Assembly (NCBI GenBank): GCA_018400755.1
Contig: JAGYLU010000015.1
Location: 1 to 39,732 of the forward strand
Source: Acholeplasmataceae bacterium
GTDB taxonomy: Bacteria > Bacillota_I > Bacilli_A > Acholeplasmatales > Acholeplasmataceae
Direction of reading: 5' to 3'
DNA length: 39,732 bases
The translations under genes and the position numbers were made by a program. Below the pieces are notes generated by a model, which had not been told where the DNA came from, made no database searches, and saw nothing but the letters and a program-made list of their open reading frames with translations. Positions 24,579 through 30,860 of the stretch are shown in pieces. Each line of letters begins with the position of its first letter. The stretch's first letter is position 1.

Positions 24579-25709
24579 ATGAATCTAGCAATTGAGTTCG
24601 GACGCTTCATTGTCAAACGCATGTTTCACCGGCGTTATCGGTTTCGATTCGACTATGATAGATTTGATCCCAAAGGAAAGACATCCTTTTTCCTTGTGGC
24701 CAATCATCCATCAGCGCTCGATCCTCTTTACGTCGCCATGAATATCGTCCGTTATCCGTATCCGATAGCGAACATCTTTTTATATACGGATCCAAAACTT
24801 AAGTTTTTATTAACTAACGTGGTCAAAAGTATTCCCAAACGCAAAGGTCAAACTGATACCAGAACCATCAGGGCGATCCTCGAGGCTTATCAGAAGGATC
24901 ACCGAAGCATCATGGTCTTTCCCGAAGGCAACGCATCGTATTTTGGGAAAAGTACGCCTACCGATTATGCAAGCACAGCCAAAATCGCCAAGAAAGTCGG
25001 GGTTGATGTCATTGCCGCGAAGATCGATGGCGGGTTTCTCGCCGCCCCAAGATGGGGCAAGTACATCAAAGGAAGCAGAGTCGATGTCCATTACTCAATT
25101 CTTCTGACGTCTGAGAGGTTGAAGACAATGAGCATACAAGAGATTGCCTCGGTGATTGAAGAGGCGCTCACCTTTGATGATTTTGACTGGCGTGAAGCCC
25201 ATGACGTCATGTATCCAACCAAGCACCGGGCACAAGGCCTTGAACATGTCATCTATTGGTGCCCTAAATGTCAGGGGATTCAGACCATCCATACCAAAGG
25301 TAATGACATACACTGTCGGACATGTGGCCATATCGCCTCCTTTGATGAACGATCACTTCTGACGGGTCTTCCTTTTGCGAGACTCACAGAATGGGGCGAT
25401 CGACAAATGGATATGATTCCTGGTATCATCAAAGAAGGGTTTGAGACCAAAGGGGTTTTGAAAGAAATTGATTTCAAACGAATGAGACGCAGGCACATCG
25501 GCCTTGCGAGGGTCACATATCAGGCGCCTATAATCTGGATTGTGACCAAAACATTGACGCTAGAAATCAACCAAGAGGACATCACGGGCATTGTGATGAC
25601 CGAGAAGAATGACATTTCCTTCGATTGGAAGGGTCATACATACTTTATCACCATCGACGATCCGAAATTGCTTTTAGACGTCATCACTCACACAAAGGAG
25701 ATCAACTGA
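24579..25709 (+). CDS. PlsC-type acyltransferase with C-terminal zinc ribbon
   Basis: A 376-residue protein in two parts. Residues 1-215 are a PlsC/LPLAT fold with the catalytic NHPSALD (His43, Asp48) and FPEGN (114-118), as in 1-acyl-glycerol-3-phosphate acyltransferases. Residues 225-252 form a zinc ribbon (Cys228, Cys231, Cys246, Cys249 in CPKC and CRTC). The last 120 residues look like a small beta-rich domain (LTLEINQEDITGIVMTEKND). The ribbon and tail are not part of ordinary PlsC. The protein probably sits on the inner face of the membrane. Its acyl acceptor is unknown, and glycerophospholipid synthesis is only the default guess. ATG 24579 follows AAGGAG. It is followed two bases later by gltS, so the two form an operon. 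Confidence 0.85.
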   Translation: MNLAIEFGRFIVKRMFHRRYRFRFDYDRFDPKGKTSFFLVANHPSALDPLYVAMNIVRYPYPIANIFLYTDPKLKFLLTNVVKSIPKRKGQTDTRTIRAILEAYQKDHRSIMVFPEGNASYFGKSTPTDYASTAKIAKKVGVDVIAAKIDGGFLAAPRWGKYIKGSRVDVHYSILLTSERLKTMSIQEIASVIEEALTFDDFDWREAHDVMYPTKHRAQGLEHVIYWCPKCQGIQTIHTKGNDIHCRTCGHIASFDERSLLTGLPFARLTEWGDRQMDMIPGIIKEGFETKGVLKEIDFKRMRRRHIGLARVTYQAPIIWIVTKTLTLEINQEDITGIVMTEKNDISFDWKGHTYFITIDDPKLLLDVITHTKEIN

Positions 25710-25711
25710 CT

Positions 25712-27082
25712 ATGGAAAACTGGGGTATCATCTTGAATTTTCTTCTGATCGGCGGACTGATGTTCATCGCCAAAATCTTGAAGACCAAAGTTCCTGTTCT
25801 GAACAGAATCGTTATTCCCACAGCGTTGCTTGGGGGCTTTATCGGTCTTGTCATATCGCTTGTTTTCGCACCAATCATCATCGGCAAGGAAACGTTTTTC
25901 AATCTCGATGAACTCGAATCAATTGTCTATCATGCCCTCGCCATCGGCTTTATCGCTTTGGCGTTGAAACGGGAACCCTCAAAGATCAAAAAGAAGATCT
26001 GGTCAACTGGCATGCTTATCACAAGCACTTACGCATTGCAGGCTGTGATTGGGATTTTATTGTTCCTGGCATTTTTCGCCCAAGACAACTTCATTGGTTC
26101 TGGGATGCTTGTCGCGCTCGGATTCGGACAAGGTCCGGGGCTTGCGATGTCGATCGGAAACACATGGACCGATCAGCTCAAAGGCTTTGGTGGTGACCTT
26201 GGGGCCTCATACGCGTTTCTTGGATTCGTTTTCGGGGGCACTGTTGGGGTAACACTGATCAATATCATCAGCCGCCGCAAGGGCACTTTGAAACCGAAGT
26301 CCTATGATGAGGAGTCATCCTCAAAGGTGACCATTGAGGTTGACACCATCAAAGAGATCAGTCTCCTTGACGGGCTCACCACTCAGATGATCATCATTTC
26401 AATCATTTATGGATTGGTCTATCTGACCCTCTATGTTGCGGAAATCGGACTCGGTGCGCTAGCTGGGACCGGGGAACAGATTTTTGGTCTCCTCAAAGGC
26501 TTCAACTTCATCATTGGTATTCTTTATGCCTTGGTCTATAAGAACATCTTGAAGGCGTTTGAGAAAAGGGGACGGAATGTCCGCTTCATCACCAACAACT
26601 ACATGCTATCCAACATCGCGTCCATCGCCTTCAACATCATGATTGCCGGGGCTGTCCTTTCAATCACTTTGGAATTCCTAAATGACTATGGCATCCAGCT
26701 CTTTGTGACGGCGATTCTCGCCGGATTGGTCACGATGGTCTATCTCAGATACATGACCAAACGCGTCTATCCAGGGTATCAAGATGAGTATTTCATCGGC
26801 CTTTTCGGAATGCTCACCGGGGTCGCCTCGACCGGTCTTGCTCTTCTCAAGGGGATTGACCAAAATCTCGAGACACCGGTCGCGGAAGAGATGGTGCTCG
26901 GATCGGGAACCGCGATTTCGATGGCATTGCCCTTGTTTGTGATCCTGTTCTTACCGTCACTGACCCTAAACAGCGGACGAACCGCGATGTGGAATCTGAT
27001 CTCACTCTTTGGCTGTCTGCTCTATATCGGTATCTTAGTGACGATTTTGTTGATCAGAGGACGCCGCGGCGTCAACGTCTGA
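25712..27082 (+). CDS. gltS: Sodium/glutamate symporter, GltS-type
   Basis: A 456-residue integral membrane protein with about 10-12 spans that imports glutamate with sodium. Typical of the GltS family are the repeated pore-region motifs: LGFGQGPGLAMSIGNTW near residue 140 and FGMLTGVASTGLALLKGID near residue 375. The central hydrophilic loop (KSYDEESSSKVTIEVDTIKE) separates the two halves. ATG 25712 is chosen because the N-terminus MENWGIILNFLLIGGLMFIA starts the first span and AAAGGAG lies 11 bases upstream, inside the PlsC-like gene. The frame is open upstream to 25625, but that part would overlap the previous gene. A related transporter for another dicarboxylic amino acid is possible. Confidence 0.88.
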   Translation: MENWGIILNFLLIGGLMFIAKILKTKVPVLNRIVIPTALLGGFIGLVISLVFAPIIIGKETFFNLDELESIVYHALAIGFIALALKREPSKIKKKIWSTGMLITSTYALQAVIGILLFLAFFAQDNFIGSGMLVALGFGQGPGLAMSIGNTWTDQLKGFGGDLGASYAFLGFVFGGTVGVTLINIISRRKGTLKPKSYDEESSSKVTIEVDTIKEISLLDGLTTQMIIISIIYGLVYLTLYVAEIGLGALAGTGEQIFGLLKGFNFIIGILYALVYKNILKAFEKRGRNVRFITNNYMLSNIASIAFNIMIAGAVLSITLEFLNDYGIQLFVTAILAGLVTMVYLRYMTKRVYPGYQDEYFIGLFGMLTGVASTGLALLKGIDQNLETPVAEEMVLGSGTAISMALPLFVILFLPSLTLNSGRTAMWNLISLFGCLLYIGILVTILLIRGRRGVNV

Positions 27083-27132: not shown

Positions 27133-27167
27133 AAAAACGAAACAGCGGTTGCTGCTTCGTTTTTTTG
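27133..27167 (+). terminator. Bidirectional terminator between gltS and pheA
   Basis: AAACGAA and CAGC pair with GCTG and TTCGTTT across one A-C mismatch (27135-27162), loop GGTT. T7 follows on plus and T5 on minus, so both convergent genes can use it. Confidence 0.9.
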
Positions 27168-27177
27168 TTGTCATAGG

Positions 27178-27990
27178 TTACAAAGTGATGGATCCGTAGT
27201 AACCAAGTACGGTTACGGTCGCCGAGGCGGAAATCGTCTTGAGGGCGATCTCAATCTCCTGACGGTTATGCAAAGTGCCCTCCATCTCAAGAAAGAAGAT
27301 GTAGCGGCCCATCGTGGTCTTCATCGGTCGCGACATGATTGAGACAAGGTTGATGTCATGGGTTTTAAAGACGGACAGGATGTCATAGAGAAGTCCTGGC
27401 CGATCCGATTCGGGCTTGACAATCACCGAGACCTTGAGGGGACCTTCGGGGATCTGATGAACGCGCCTAGAAAGCAGGACGAACCGTGTCTCATTTAAGA
27501 CATTTGGGTCAGACAATGTTTTCCGATAAGGGAAATCCGGTGTCGAAATGTGTAGAGGGACAATGGCGGCATCGCCTTGTGAAAGGATATGATGATGTGA
27601 TACCATGTTGCTTTCAGTGACGATGACAGAGACGTTTTCAAGGGTGTTTAAAAACGATTGGGTCTGTGCTTTGGCAGCGAACTGGACGAAGATTCTCTGG
27701 ATATCCTCTGGACCATCGATCAATCCCACAAGCGCGTAATCAATGCTGATCTTGATGTCTGCATGGATGGACAATGTGTGTTCATAGATGCCATCCAGAG
27801 TTCGGTAGATGAAGCCATCCAGGGCGTTTTCAATCGGAACCAAGGCATGGGTTGCCTGGGTGCCAACGGTTTTGAGCACATCTTCGATGGTGTCACGGTA
27901 GATGATATGATCGTCATCTTTGGTGATCATCTTCGCAGCCAGATCCGAGAATGTGCCTTCTGGGCCCAAGACAGCGATGGTCTTTGTCAT
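27178..27990 (-). CDS. pheA: Prephenate dehydratase
   Basis: Converts prephenate to phenylpyruvate in phenylalanine synthesis. The catalytic domain has LGPEGTFSDLAAK (8-20), VPIENALDGFIYRTLD (51-66), and the NETRF motif (166-170) with the Thr-Arg-Phe dehydratase signature. A C-terminal ACT domain for feedback by phenylalanine follows (residues about 184-260, SDRPGLLYDILSVFKTHDIN). The usual SHPQ line is not clear, where FAAKAQTQSFL stands instead, so the protein is divergent. The 270-residue length is normal for the stand-alone enzyme. The ATG overlaps the preceding gene by ATGA. It is the last gene of a three-gene overlapping operon behind an acyltransferase and a membrane protein, an unusual context for pheA. 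Confidence 0.88.
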   Translation of the reverse strand: MTKTIAVLGPEGTFSDLAAKMITKDDDHIIYRDTIEDVLKTVGTQATHALVPIENALDGFIYRTLDGIYEHTLSIHADIKISIDYALVGLIDGPEDIQRIFVQFAAKAQTQSFLNTLENVSVIVTESNMVSHHHILSQGDAAIVPLHISTPDFPYRKTLSDPNVLNETRFVLLSRRVHQIPEGPLKVSVIVKPESDRPGLLYDILSVFKTHDINLVSIMSRPMKTTMGRYIFFLEMEGTLHNRQEIEIALKTISASATVTVLGYYGSITL

Positions 27991-28652
27991 ATGTGAAACC
28001 GCCGTTTGAATTCTTCTTTGGCTTCTTTGGTCGAAAGGGCGAACATGCCGACCAGAATGGTGGCTGATGCGATGAACGTGACCACGCTCGGCCAGACGAT
28101 TGAGAGGGCACCAAGCAGGTTCAAGAGGCCGGGAATGAGTCCGACCATGGCCAAGATGGCAAGATTGAACCCATAATCAAATGCGCGTTTGCGGTCGGCG
28201 AAGACCATGATGGAGAGCAAGATCAGATTGATCAGGATGCCAAGTGGGAAAACGATGTCAAGTGCCCATGCGTGGTCTCTGGTTGCGAGACCGACGAAGA
28301 TCAGACCACTCAAGGTGACCAACAGACTCTTTGTCAGTTTCGATGTCCATAAGGCTGGAACAAAGAGGATGAGATAGAGGATCACGGCATAGGCTGAGGA
28401 GGCAAGAACGATCAGTGACCAGGACAAGGGTGAGCCATCGATCAAGTCAAGATAAAGTGAGATGGCTGAACTTAGACCACTGACAAACAAGAATAGGCGT
28501 TGAAAGCGGCGGGGATTTCTGGTTTTGGTATACGGGGTAAACTTATAGACGGATTTGGTGGTGCCATCGATGTGATCGAGATTCCCTTCACAAAGCAAGC
28601 ATTTTGAGAGGTTGGTGTCGTATTTGACATGGCACGTCTTACAGTATTTCAT
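27987..28652 (-). CDS. Zinc-ribbon integral membrane protein (DUF6320-like)
   Basis: A 221-residue protein with an N-terminal zinc ribbon (Cys4, Cys7, Cys18, Cys21: CKTC and CLLC) and then about six membrane spans, such as LIVLASSAYAVILYLILFVP and FPLGILINLILLSIMVFA. The layout matches the DUF6320 family as I know it, which is often next to condensation-fold acyltransferases. I have no function for it. The second ATG of a pair, at 28652, is chosen because GGGAGG lies six bases before it. The start is inside the 3' end of the acyltransferase gene (14-base overlap) and the stop overlaps pheA by ATGA. The close overlaps suggest it works with the acyltransferase. Confidence 0.78.
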   Translation of the reverse strand: MKYCKTCHVKYDTNLSKCLLCEGNLDHIDGTTKSVYKFTPYTKTRNPRRFQRLFLFVSGLSSAISLYLDLIDGSPLSWSLIVLASSAYAVILYLILFVPALWTSKLTKSLLVTLSGLIFVGLATRDHAWALDIVFPLGILINLILLSIMVFADRKRAFDYGFNLAILAMVGLIPGLLNLLGALSIVWPSVVTFIASATILVGMFALSTKEAKEEFKRRFHI

Positions 28653-29919
28653 CATAGCCCTCCCGGTAGTTGGTATCAAGCGTCAGATCGAGACCTTCAC
28701 GGACCAAAAAGGACACGATGAAATTGATGATGGATGTGTCTTTCAAGGATGAGTTGATGATGATGTTGGTTTTGGATCCATAGGATGCCATCGTTGTGGT
28801 CAGACCGTATCCGCCGTTTGCGAAATCGACATCAAGGACCCTGTCCTTCATGCCCGAAGGCAAATCGATGATGCCCAGATTGGACAGACTAGATGTGCTG
28901 ATCGAATCGCCAAGGATGTTGTAGCCAATTTTGAAGGCGATGTTCTTCAAGAAGAGGGGTAGGATTCGGAGCATCAGTTTTTTCTCAAAACCAACATTTG
29001 AGCTCAGACGTTGTTGTAGCTTCTCTTTGTCAAGCTGATCCTTAAAAGACTCTTTGGCGATGGCCAACATGTCTTCAAACGTCCACGTTCTCTTGTCAGA
29101 GGGGTAAGTCGCCTTGATGAACAAAGAGAAATTCCTGAGCGTCACGGCATTGAAATAAGGTCTCAGATTGACAGGGATGAACATTTTGATCGGCTTTTTC
29201 TGATGAATGAAATCATCGGTCTCATTGACAATGGCAAAGGCAATCAGGGCACAGACGTATTGTGTCAAGGTTGCGTTGTAGGTGGATTTGACATGGGCAA
29301 GAAAAGACGGCGTCTCTAGCGAGATCTTGAGTAACAAATTCCAATGTCTGGAGAAACGTTCACCATTCAAGTGATAAGCGGTCTCCTCGCGTAAATTCTT
29401 GACGAGCGCTTTGTCATAATTGGCGACAAACATGTCCATGGATTCCTTCTTCGAATATGGAAGCTCAGAAAGTATTTTCTCCTCATGGTCAATCTCATGA
29501 CCTTGAAGACGAAAGTAGCGATAGACAATCGATTTGAGGAAATGAAGTGCTCCTGTCCCATCACTGATCGCGTGAAAGGTTTCAAGGGTCACCTTGTTTG
29601 CCAATGTGTAGACCTTGAACAGATAGCCATTGTTTTTGGCTGATTTGAAATAGCGACACGTCTGGGATGGTTCTTCCTCAACCGTGAAAGGGTGTTTGTT
29701 TTCAGCAAAATAGTTCCAGAACAGACCGCTTTTCATCTGCACAGCAAACACATCGAAACGTGGTAGCACTGAGTTGACAGCCGCTTCAAGCGTCTTGGGG
29801 TCGACAACATCATCAAGATAAAAAGACAGCCTGAAGACATTCGACCGTCCACTTGAGGAAATCGCAGGGAAAATCTTTCCGGCATTATCGATTTTGTACC
29901 AGTATGTTTTCTTTTTCAA
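28639..29919 (-). CDS. Condensation-fold acyltransferase (alcohol acetyltransferase-like)
   Basis: A 426-residue protein of the chloramphenicol-acetyltransferase/condensation superfamily, related to alcohol acetyltransferase (PF07247-like) proteins. The active-site motif is HAISDG (His116, Asp120, Gly121) in LETFHAISDGTGALHFL. The usual double His is Phe-His here. NLGIIDLP near residue 375 resembles the second conserved structural line. No carrier domain or signal peptide is visible. The acyl donor and acceptor are unknown. The start is taken as TTG 29919 because the upstream open frame from GTG 29970 overlaps a TATAAT. The gene leads an overlapping operon with a zinc-ribbon membrane protein and pheA, and diverges from a MarR regulator. 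Confidence 0.78.
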   Translation of the reverse strand: MKKKTYWYKIDNAGKIFPAISSSGRSNVFRLSFYLDDVVDPKTLEAAVNSVLPRFDVFAVQMKSGLFWNYFAENKHPFTVEEEPSQTCRYFKSAKNNGYLFKVYTLANKVTLETFHAISDGTGALHFLKSIVYRYFRLQGHEIDHEEKILSELPYSKKESMDMFVANYDKALVKNLREETAYHLNGERFSRHWNLLLKISLETPSFLAHVKSTYNATLTQYVCALIAFAIVNETDDFIHQKKPIKMFIPVNLRPYFNAVTLRNFSLFIKATYPSDKRTWTFEDMLAIAKESFKDQLDKEKLQQRLSSNVGFEKKLMLRILPLFLKNIAFKIGYNILGDSISTSSLSNLGIIDLPSGMKDRVLDVDFANGGYGLTTTMASYGSKTNIIINSSLKDTSIINFIVSFLVREGLDLTLDTNYREGYDEIL

Positions 29920-29961
29920 GTCATCACGTCCATTTGTCTTGTAGGTCCCCCCTACGGTCCT

Positions 29962-29967
29962 ATTATA
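29962..29967 (-). promoter_or_regulatory. Probable -10 box of the acyltransferase operon
   Basis: TATAAT on minus, 43 bases before the TTG start. GTGAATTTCAC (29979-29989), a near-palindrome, lies in the -35 zone and may bind a regulator. Confidence 0.55.
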
Positions 29968-30011
29968 CACGCGAACCGGTGAATTTCACGGATGATGATT
30001 GAAATCAGTCA

Positions 30012-30040
30012 CTTCAGACATGTATAGGGTTGTCTTGAAG
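30012..30040 (+). promoter_or_regulatory. Inverted repeat over the marR -35 box
   Basis: CTTCAGACA (30012-30020) mirrors TGTCTTGAAG (30031-30040) with one bulged base. It covers the -35 TTGTCT at 30030-30035 and could be a MarR operator. Confidence 0.5.
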
Positions 30041-30058
30041 GACGGATTGATGTAAAAT
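30030..30058 (+). promoter_or_regulatory. marR promoter
   Basis: TTGTCT (30030-30035), a 17-base spacer and TAAAAT (30053-30058). Confidence 0.65.
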
Positions 30059-30106
30059 GAATTGATTCGACATTGACGAAAAACGTCTTGAAAGGAACCA
30101 TTGTTC

Positions 30107-30565
30107 ATGAACCGAAGCGCAAAAAGTCTCAAACTGACCACGGTCATGTTTCGGGCATTCTCACAAGTTCAGACCGTGATCAAAAACGACATCGCCGATT
30201 ACGGGCTCAACACCAGTGAGTTTGGAACGCTCGAAGTGCTCTATCACAAGGGCGCGCTCCCGATCCAAGGTGTTGGCGAGTTGATCCTGATGGCAAACTC
30301 GAGTATGACCTATGTCGTTGACAAACTCGAAAAAAGACAGTTCATCAAACGATTTCAGCTCCCAAGCGACAGAAGATCCGTCATGATCGAATTGACAAAC
30401 GAAGGCAAAACCTTTTTTGAGACCATTTTTGAGTCTCACAAACAGACACTTGATATGCTTTATGGTGGCCTTTCAGATGCCCAGAAGGACCTAGTCATCG
30501 AATCCATGAAAACCATTGGTTTCAAAGCAGAGGAAACCAATCGGACGCGTAAGAAGAAAGGGTGA
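30107..30565 (+). CDS. MarR-family transcriptional regulator
   Basis: A 152-residue winged-helix protein. The core is ADYGLNTSEFGTLEVLYHKG, the recognition-helix region MANSSMTYVVDKLEKRQFIK, and the wing QLPSDRRSVMIELTNEGKTF with the usual Asp-Arg-Arg. Flanking helices give the dimer. MarR proteins often repress a divergent operon and respond to small phenolic or lipid ligands. Here the divergent unit is the acyltransferase, membrane protein and pheA operon, which fits but is not proven. ATG 30107 has AAAGGA ten bases upstream; TTG 30101 is possible but too close to that site. The DUF2087 gene follows four bases after the stop. Confidence 0.9.
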   Translation: MNRSAKSLKLTTVMFRAFSQVQTVIKNDIADYGLNTSEFGTLEVLYHKGALPIQGVGELILMANSSMTYVVDKLEKRQFIKRFQLPSDRRSVMIELTNEGKTFFETIFESHKQTLDMLYGGLSDAQKDLVIESMKTIGFKAEETNRTRKKKG

Positions 30566-30569
30566 GTGT

Positions 30570-30860
30570 ATGTTTGTCACGAGTGAAGCTGACATCAGAC
30601 ACGTTGAAATGACGTATCTAGAGTCAAAGGTGCCATTGGTCTTCAAGGATTGGCCAGGCAAAGAAAAAAGACGATACATTTTGGTGAGGATGGTTGCTGC
30701 AGAGTTTGAGAAAGGTCGGACTTACACGGAAATGGATGTCAATGAGACGATCAAGCCGATTTATCATGATTTTGTTTCCATCAGACGTTACCTGGTGGAC
30801 TATGGCTTTCTCTCACGTGAGAAGAACGGATCATCTTATTGGGTCAATGACAATGAATAA
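30570..30860 (+). CDS. DUF2087 domain protein
   Basis: A 96-residue protein that consists almost wholly of a DUF2087 domain. EKRRYILVRMVAAEFEKGRT is its start, and YTEMDVNETIKPIYHDFVSI then RRYLVDYGFLSREKNGSSYW complete the family pattern. The domain looks like a winged helix and is often fused or next to transcription regulators; its function is unknown. ATG 30570 follows AAAGGGTGA. It is likely cotranscribed with the MarR gene and ends in a stem-loop whose left arm includes the stop codon. Confidence 0.88.
   Translation: MFVTSEADIRHVEMTYLESKVPLVFKDWPGKEKRRYILVRMVAAEFEKGRTYTEMDVNETIKPIYHDFVSIRRYLVDYGFLSREKNGSSYWVNDNE

Follow-up and report, generated by a model that had tools for sequence, protein, structure and literature searches.

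A prephenate dehydratase gene behind an acyltransferase–DUF6320 pair in an Acholeplasmataceae genome: probably an inherited gene order rather than a pathway

Why should a gene for prephenate dehydratase (PheA, a PDT) stand third in an overlapping operon whose first two genes encode an acyltransferase and a membrane protein, and does the MarR-type regulator divergent from that operon control it? The window, which is the whole stretch of DNA analysed here (39,732 nucleotides), is contig C57 of G000, a metagenome-assembled genome (MAG) of 2.23 Mb in 239 contigs from a wall-less bacterium. Its relevant features are as follows.

25712-27082, plus strand: sodium/glutamate-symporter-like gene (gltS), convergent with PheA and part of a conserved block ald-plsC-gltS
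27144-27156, plus strand: terminator-like hairpin with a T-run, lying between PheA and the transporter gene that converges on it
27178-27990, minus strand: PheA, prephenate dehydratase with ACT domain (PF00800 + PF01842)
27987-28652 (ATG 28652) or 27987-28655 (ATG 28655), minus strand: DUF6320 membrane protein with an N-terminal CxxC-CxxC zinc ribbon (PF19845)
28639-29919, minus strand: acyltransferase (AT), probably of the HxxxDG superfamily (AATase/PapA/condensation-like), 426 aa, probable TTG start
29920-30106, no strand: region shared by MarR and AT, lacking the palindrome TTCGAATTCGAA of relatives and holding a promoter-like site for AT
30107-30565, plus strand, divergent from AT: MarR-family regulator, MhqR ortholog by synteny (PF01047, 1.4e-13)
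30570-30860, plus strand: DUF2087 protein (PF09860, 9e-25), syntenic in relatives, the last gene left of the mhq cluster

The initial annotation had described three genes overlapping in turn, by 14 and 4 bases, opposite a divergent MarR gene, and these frames are found as described, with those of the trio intact on the minus strand. The overlap between AT and DUF6320 amounts to 14 bases if the latter starts at ATG 28652 and to 17 bases if it starts at ATG 28655, and DUF6320 overlaps PheA by 4 bases (ATGA). The promoter-like site for AT reads GTGAAA-16-TATAAT (29989-29962, minus strand). On balance, the locus is probably best explained as two modules, the AT–DUF6320 pair and an ordinary PheA, placed on one probable transcript by inherited gene order, with an orphan MhqR acting elsewhere. 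The catalytic activity of every protein is a prediction.

The AT–DUF6320 pair

AT carries the motif HAISDG, as had been read from the sequence, and in an alignment with 32 relatives H116 and D120 are invariant and G121 nearly so. Its orthologs are 63–67% identical over 426 columns. The window protein has no significant match in Pfam; its relatives match AATase (8.6e-10), PapA_C, and Condensation. A profile of 32 ATs found nothing significant among PDB sequences, and a fold search with the AlphaFold model of AT (pLDDT 44; that of DUF6320, 53) had condensation/epimerisation domains as its best matches, at an E value of only 0.009, which is no more than suggestive. The membrane protein with CxxC pairs proved to be DUF6320 (PF19845, 4.9e-29, 101.9 bits against a cut-off of 29.9), present as a single copy in G000, and the zinc-ribbon cysteines C5, C8, C19, and C22 are invariant in 23 relatives. 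A literature search for DUF6320 found no paper naming the family.

That the two genes form a recurrent pair, as the initial annotation also held, is borne out across the class: AT adjoins DUF6320 in all 20 of the loci examined, and at L090:3782-5698 both are naturally fused in one protein of 638 aa, whose gene overlaps an Abhydrolase_3 gene upstream. An Abhydrolase_3 gene is likewise added at some other AT–DUF6320 loci. The pair is thus a widespread module of its own. Compared with the AT–DUF6320 pairs of Bacilli (AATase/PapA-like plus PF19845), the locus studied here has the same gene order, overlap, and HxxxDG and CxxC residues; it differs in having PheA as the third gene, whereas elsewhere the neighbours are unrelated or Abhydrolase_3. 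AT would act as an HxxxDG acyl-CoA- or acyl-ACP-dependent O-acyltransferase with the zinc-ribbon membrane protein DUF6320 as its partner, and the target of the two would be a lipid or lipophilic alcohol. This widespread and uncharacterised pair is one of the leads that the locus leaves.

PheA and its ACT domain

The third gene had been called a prephenate dehydratase, and Pfam agrees: the protein matches PF00800 at 7.3e-24 (85 bits against a cut-off of 25.2) and, at its C terminus, the ACT domain PF01842 at 6.6e-8 (32.6 bits against 27). It also matches the Staphylococcus aureus PDT 2qmw at 3e-25, with which it shares domain order (PF00800 + ACT), length, and the TRF motif (intact, as NETRF); it differs from such enzymes in its ACT motif, MSRP rather than ESRP, and in the position of its gene behind DUF6320. 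DAHP synthase, tyrA, aroB, aroA, chorismate mutase, aroE, and aroC lie together on another contig, C24, that carries no PDT (chorismate mutase and aroC were named by Pfam, the others by reading translations; no aroK was recognised on C24). The genes for prephenate supply, chorismate synthase and chorismate mutase, are therefore present in G000, both on C24. Since PheA is the only PDT in G000 and the shikimate/tyrA cluster lies elsewhere, it is most simply taken as the ordinary phenylalanine enzyme of this genome: homology and pathway context suggest that it would turn prephenate, made by the cluster on the other contig, into phenylpyruvate for phenylalanine. Literature on Acholeplasma with prephenate dehydratase yielded incidental mentions only. 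Five genomes, G015, G027, G032, G041, and G043 (99% complete), have chorismate synthase and chorismate mutase and no recognisable prephenate dehydratase; they may be phenylalanine auxotrophs or users of another dehydratase.

The ESRP motif of the ACT domain is tied to phenylalanine binding in the Escherichia coli P-protein. In its place, M/I/L-SRP occurs in 25 of 25 family PheAs compared (that of the window and 24 others), and ESRP is kept in all six outgroup PDT sequences. The window PheA hence falls outside the phenylalanine-feedback-regulated subtype as marked by ESRP, a motif that is not required for prephenate dehydratase, and the substitution suggests that phenylalanine feedback may be lost or altered across the PheAs of the family. 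Because the variant does not depend on where the PheA gene is located, it is no mark of the trio; among the motifs inspected, no residue pattern separates trio PheAs from other family PheAs. The family-wide loss of the ESRP glutamate is a further lead.

Gene order around the join

Gene order was surveyed in 88 genomes of the family and 247 of the class, most of them fragmented MAGs. Within the family, 27 of 88 genomes have a PDT and 49 have DUF6320. In seven genomes of two genera, PheA directly follows DUF6320 on the same strand: G000 and G077 (genus g1), and G081-G085, which make up the five genomes of genus g14. Six of the seven, G077 being the exception, have a 4-base overlap of the two frames; in G077 a 16-base gap separates them. 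Outside the family, none of the six genomes having both DUF6320 and a PDT in the class-wide sample links them. The initial annotation had thought the pheA link unusual, which it is across the class, though it is not unique to G000: the join recurs within the family and is absent outside it in the class sample. In a MAG of so many contigs, the join might have been suspected of being accidental and peculiar to G000, or of resulting from misassembly, but the same arrangement in six other genomes and the intact frames rule this out, and its likelihood is put next to nil.

The block order common to several genera is ald-plsC-gltS, (PheA), (CBS), DUF6320-AT, mhq cluster, with the genes in brackets present in some. 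The gene at 25712-27082, which has no Pfam match and which we take to be a sodium/glutamate symporter (gltS), neighbours PheA in g1, g14, g15, and G038. In G038, a gene on the other strand, presumably of the CBS-domain type, separates PheA from DUF6320, with PheA in the same block; in G086 and G087, PheA lies next to these gltS and CBS genes with no AT–DUF6320 pair adjoining. These three genomes add two genera in which PheA occupies the block. The block PheAs are compatible with one clade (AU p 0.31), which would fit their having been inherited where they stand. The PheA tree requires no fewer than two changes to account for direct adjacency; in the AT tree, g14 branches at the base and g1 groups with g15, g10, g11, and g13. 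Two histories fit these data: an ancestral join that the CBS gene later split or that was lost, or two separate origins of the join, each by loss of the CBS gene.

From this gene order, PheA is probably third because it has long resided in the block ald-plsC-gltS / pheA / DUF6320-AT / mhq. With no gene between PheA and DUF6320 in g1 and g14, PheA would be read together with the pair, the frames overlapping by 4 bases in G000 and in g14. What counts against this explanation, besides the fragmentation of most of the genomes, is the overlap itself: the PheAs of g1 and g14 are only about 35% identical, yet the 4-base overlap is found in both genera, which is more than a passenger gene needs, unless the overlap arose twice.

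The same overlap, kept in six genomes of two genera, speaks for a functional trio, in which PheA provides phenylpyruvate or a derived acid or alcohol, AT and DUF6320 esterify it, and the overlaps keep the three in step; so do the position of all three genes on one strand without a gap and the presence of PheA next to the mhq (quinone-detoxification) cluster in g2, g14, g15, and G038. However, AT–DUF6320 occurs without any PDT in 25 of the 49 family genomes that have it, including G076 (97% complete), which belongs to g1 as G000 does; the six class genomes noted above have both families unlinked; and the inspected motifs do not set trio PheAs apart. Across 59 non-reduced family genomes, DUF6320 and PDT occur together no more often than chance would give (24/25/3/7, Fisher p 0.32). 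As AT–DUF6320 is its own module, with no such co-occurrence, a substrate of AT derived from phenylpyruvate has no comparative support. The earlier suggestion that phenylpyruvate or one of its derivatives may give or accept the acyl group is accordingly not upheld: in most genomes the pair does not depend on PheA, whose context is that of ordinary biosynthesis. A functional trio is thus held to be improbable, and we give still less credence to a version in which the AT–DUF6320 ester contains a phenylpyruvate-derived part and the join, common to two distant genera, marks a phenylalanine-insensitive PheA (MSRP) that partly serves this ester beside protein synthesis. An overlapping operon, however striking, can stem from long-standing synteny instead of reflecting a pathway.

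Further along the block, window positions 24579-25709 encode a PlsC-like acyltransferase whose C terminus carries a CxxC...CxxC zinc ribbon; the symporter-like gene directly follows it, and this order is kept in relatives.

The divergent MarR regulator and the mhq genes

In relatives, the cluster divergent from AT comprises genes for a dioxygenase (mhqO-like), MarR, a carboxylesterase (mhqD-like), and DUF2087. The window MarR is 47–54% identical to the MarR proteins of these mhqO-marR-mhqD-DUF2087 clusters and is predicted to be an ortholog of the quinone sensor MhqR. In S. aureus mhqRED, the operator recognised by the repressor is a 9-9 bp repeat, TATCTCGAA-aTCGAaATA, and methylhydroquinone inactivates the repressor (PMC6798810). 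The relatives share with mhqRED the genes for MarR, dioxygenase, and carboxylesterase as well as a palindrome whose core, TCGAATTCGA, is that of the 9-9 bp operator; G000 differs, its dioxygenase and esterase genes lying on C79 and C214, with no operator-like site beside MarR. The operator-like palindrome of the relatives, TTCGAATTCGAA, lies between mhqO and AT. It does not occur in the window, from which mhqO and mhqD are also gone, and G000 has a single exact copy of it, located at C79:15081, where it precedes the relocated mhqO by 87 bp on the upstream side.

The mhqO-mhqD genes of G000 are kept on C79 (L140) and C214 (L141), in similar regions with the same neighbours, and both genes are frame-shifted on C79. 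The similarity may reflect a recent duplication, strain mixture, or an assembly error.

The initial annotation had taken the divergent MarR, with inverted repeats at 29979-30040, to fit control by an aromatic or lipid ligand. These repeats are at chance level: 68% of 200 shuffled sequences contained one as good as or better than the best in 29920-30106. An aromatic ligand stays plausible, as the window MarR is syntenic with MhqR-type quinone regulators; control of the trio is contradicted by the placement of the conserved operator-like palindrome, which is absent here and lies at the relocated mhqO. Control through the conserved operator was therefore rejected for G000. On the simplest reading, suggested by the operator-like sites, the orphaned MhqR would control the moved mhqO-mhqD genes in trans and not the trio operon; alternatively, the window MarR may have changed its binding specificity. 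Divergent placement beside a promoter does not by itself make a regulator act there.

Selection might also keep PheA and the pair together with no shared chemistry: if one growth condition, e.g., aromatic or quinone stress, calls for both, PheA would stay under control of the AT promoter. PheA is indeed divergent from mhqO and/or MarR in the six g2 genomes examined (G001, G002, G004, G005, G006, and G008), and in five of these an MhqR-like palindrome lies within the shared promoter region, so that a regulated PheA is conceivable there. The AT promoter, though, has no exact palindrome in G000, in G077, or in those g14 genomes that were examined, and in g10 and G035/G046 PheA lies elsewhere in the genome without linkage to mhq. 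Such a shared condition is judged unlikely, albeit less so than shared chemistry, and inherited gene order with MhqR acting elsewhere is preferred for G000.

At the g2 loci L062, L063, L111, L142, and L143, PheA is followed by an alpha/beta-hydrolase-like gene. An mhqO-like gene runs divergently from PheA, and the region between these two holds the MhqR-like palindrome; in g2, PheA could thus be under MhqR control.
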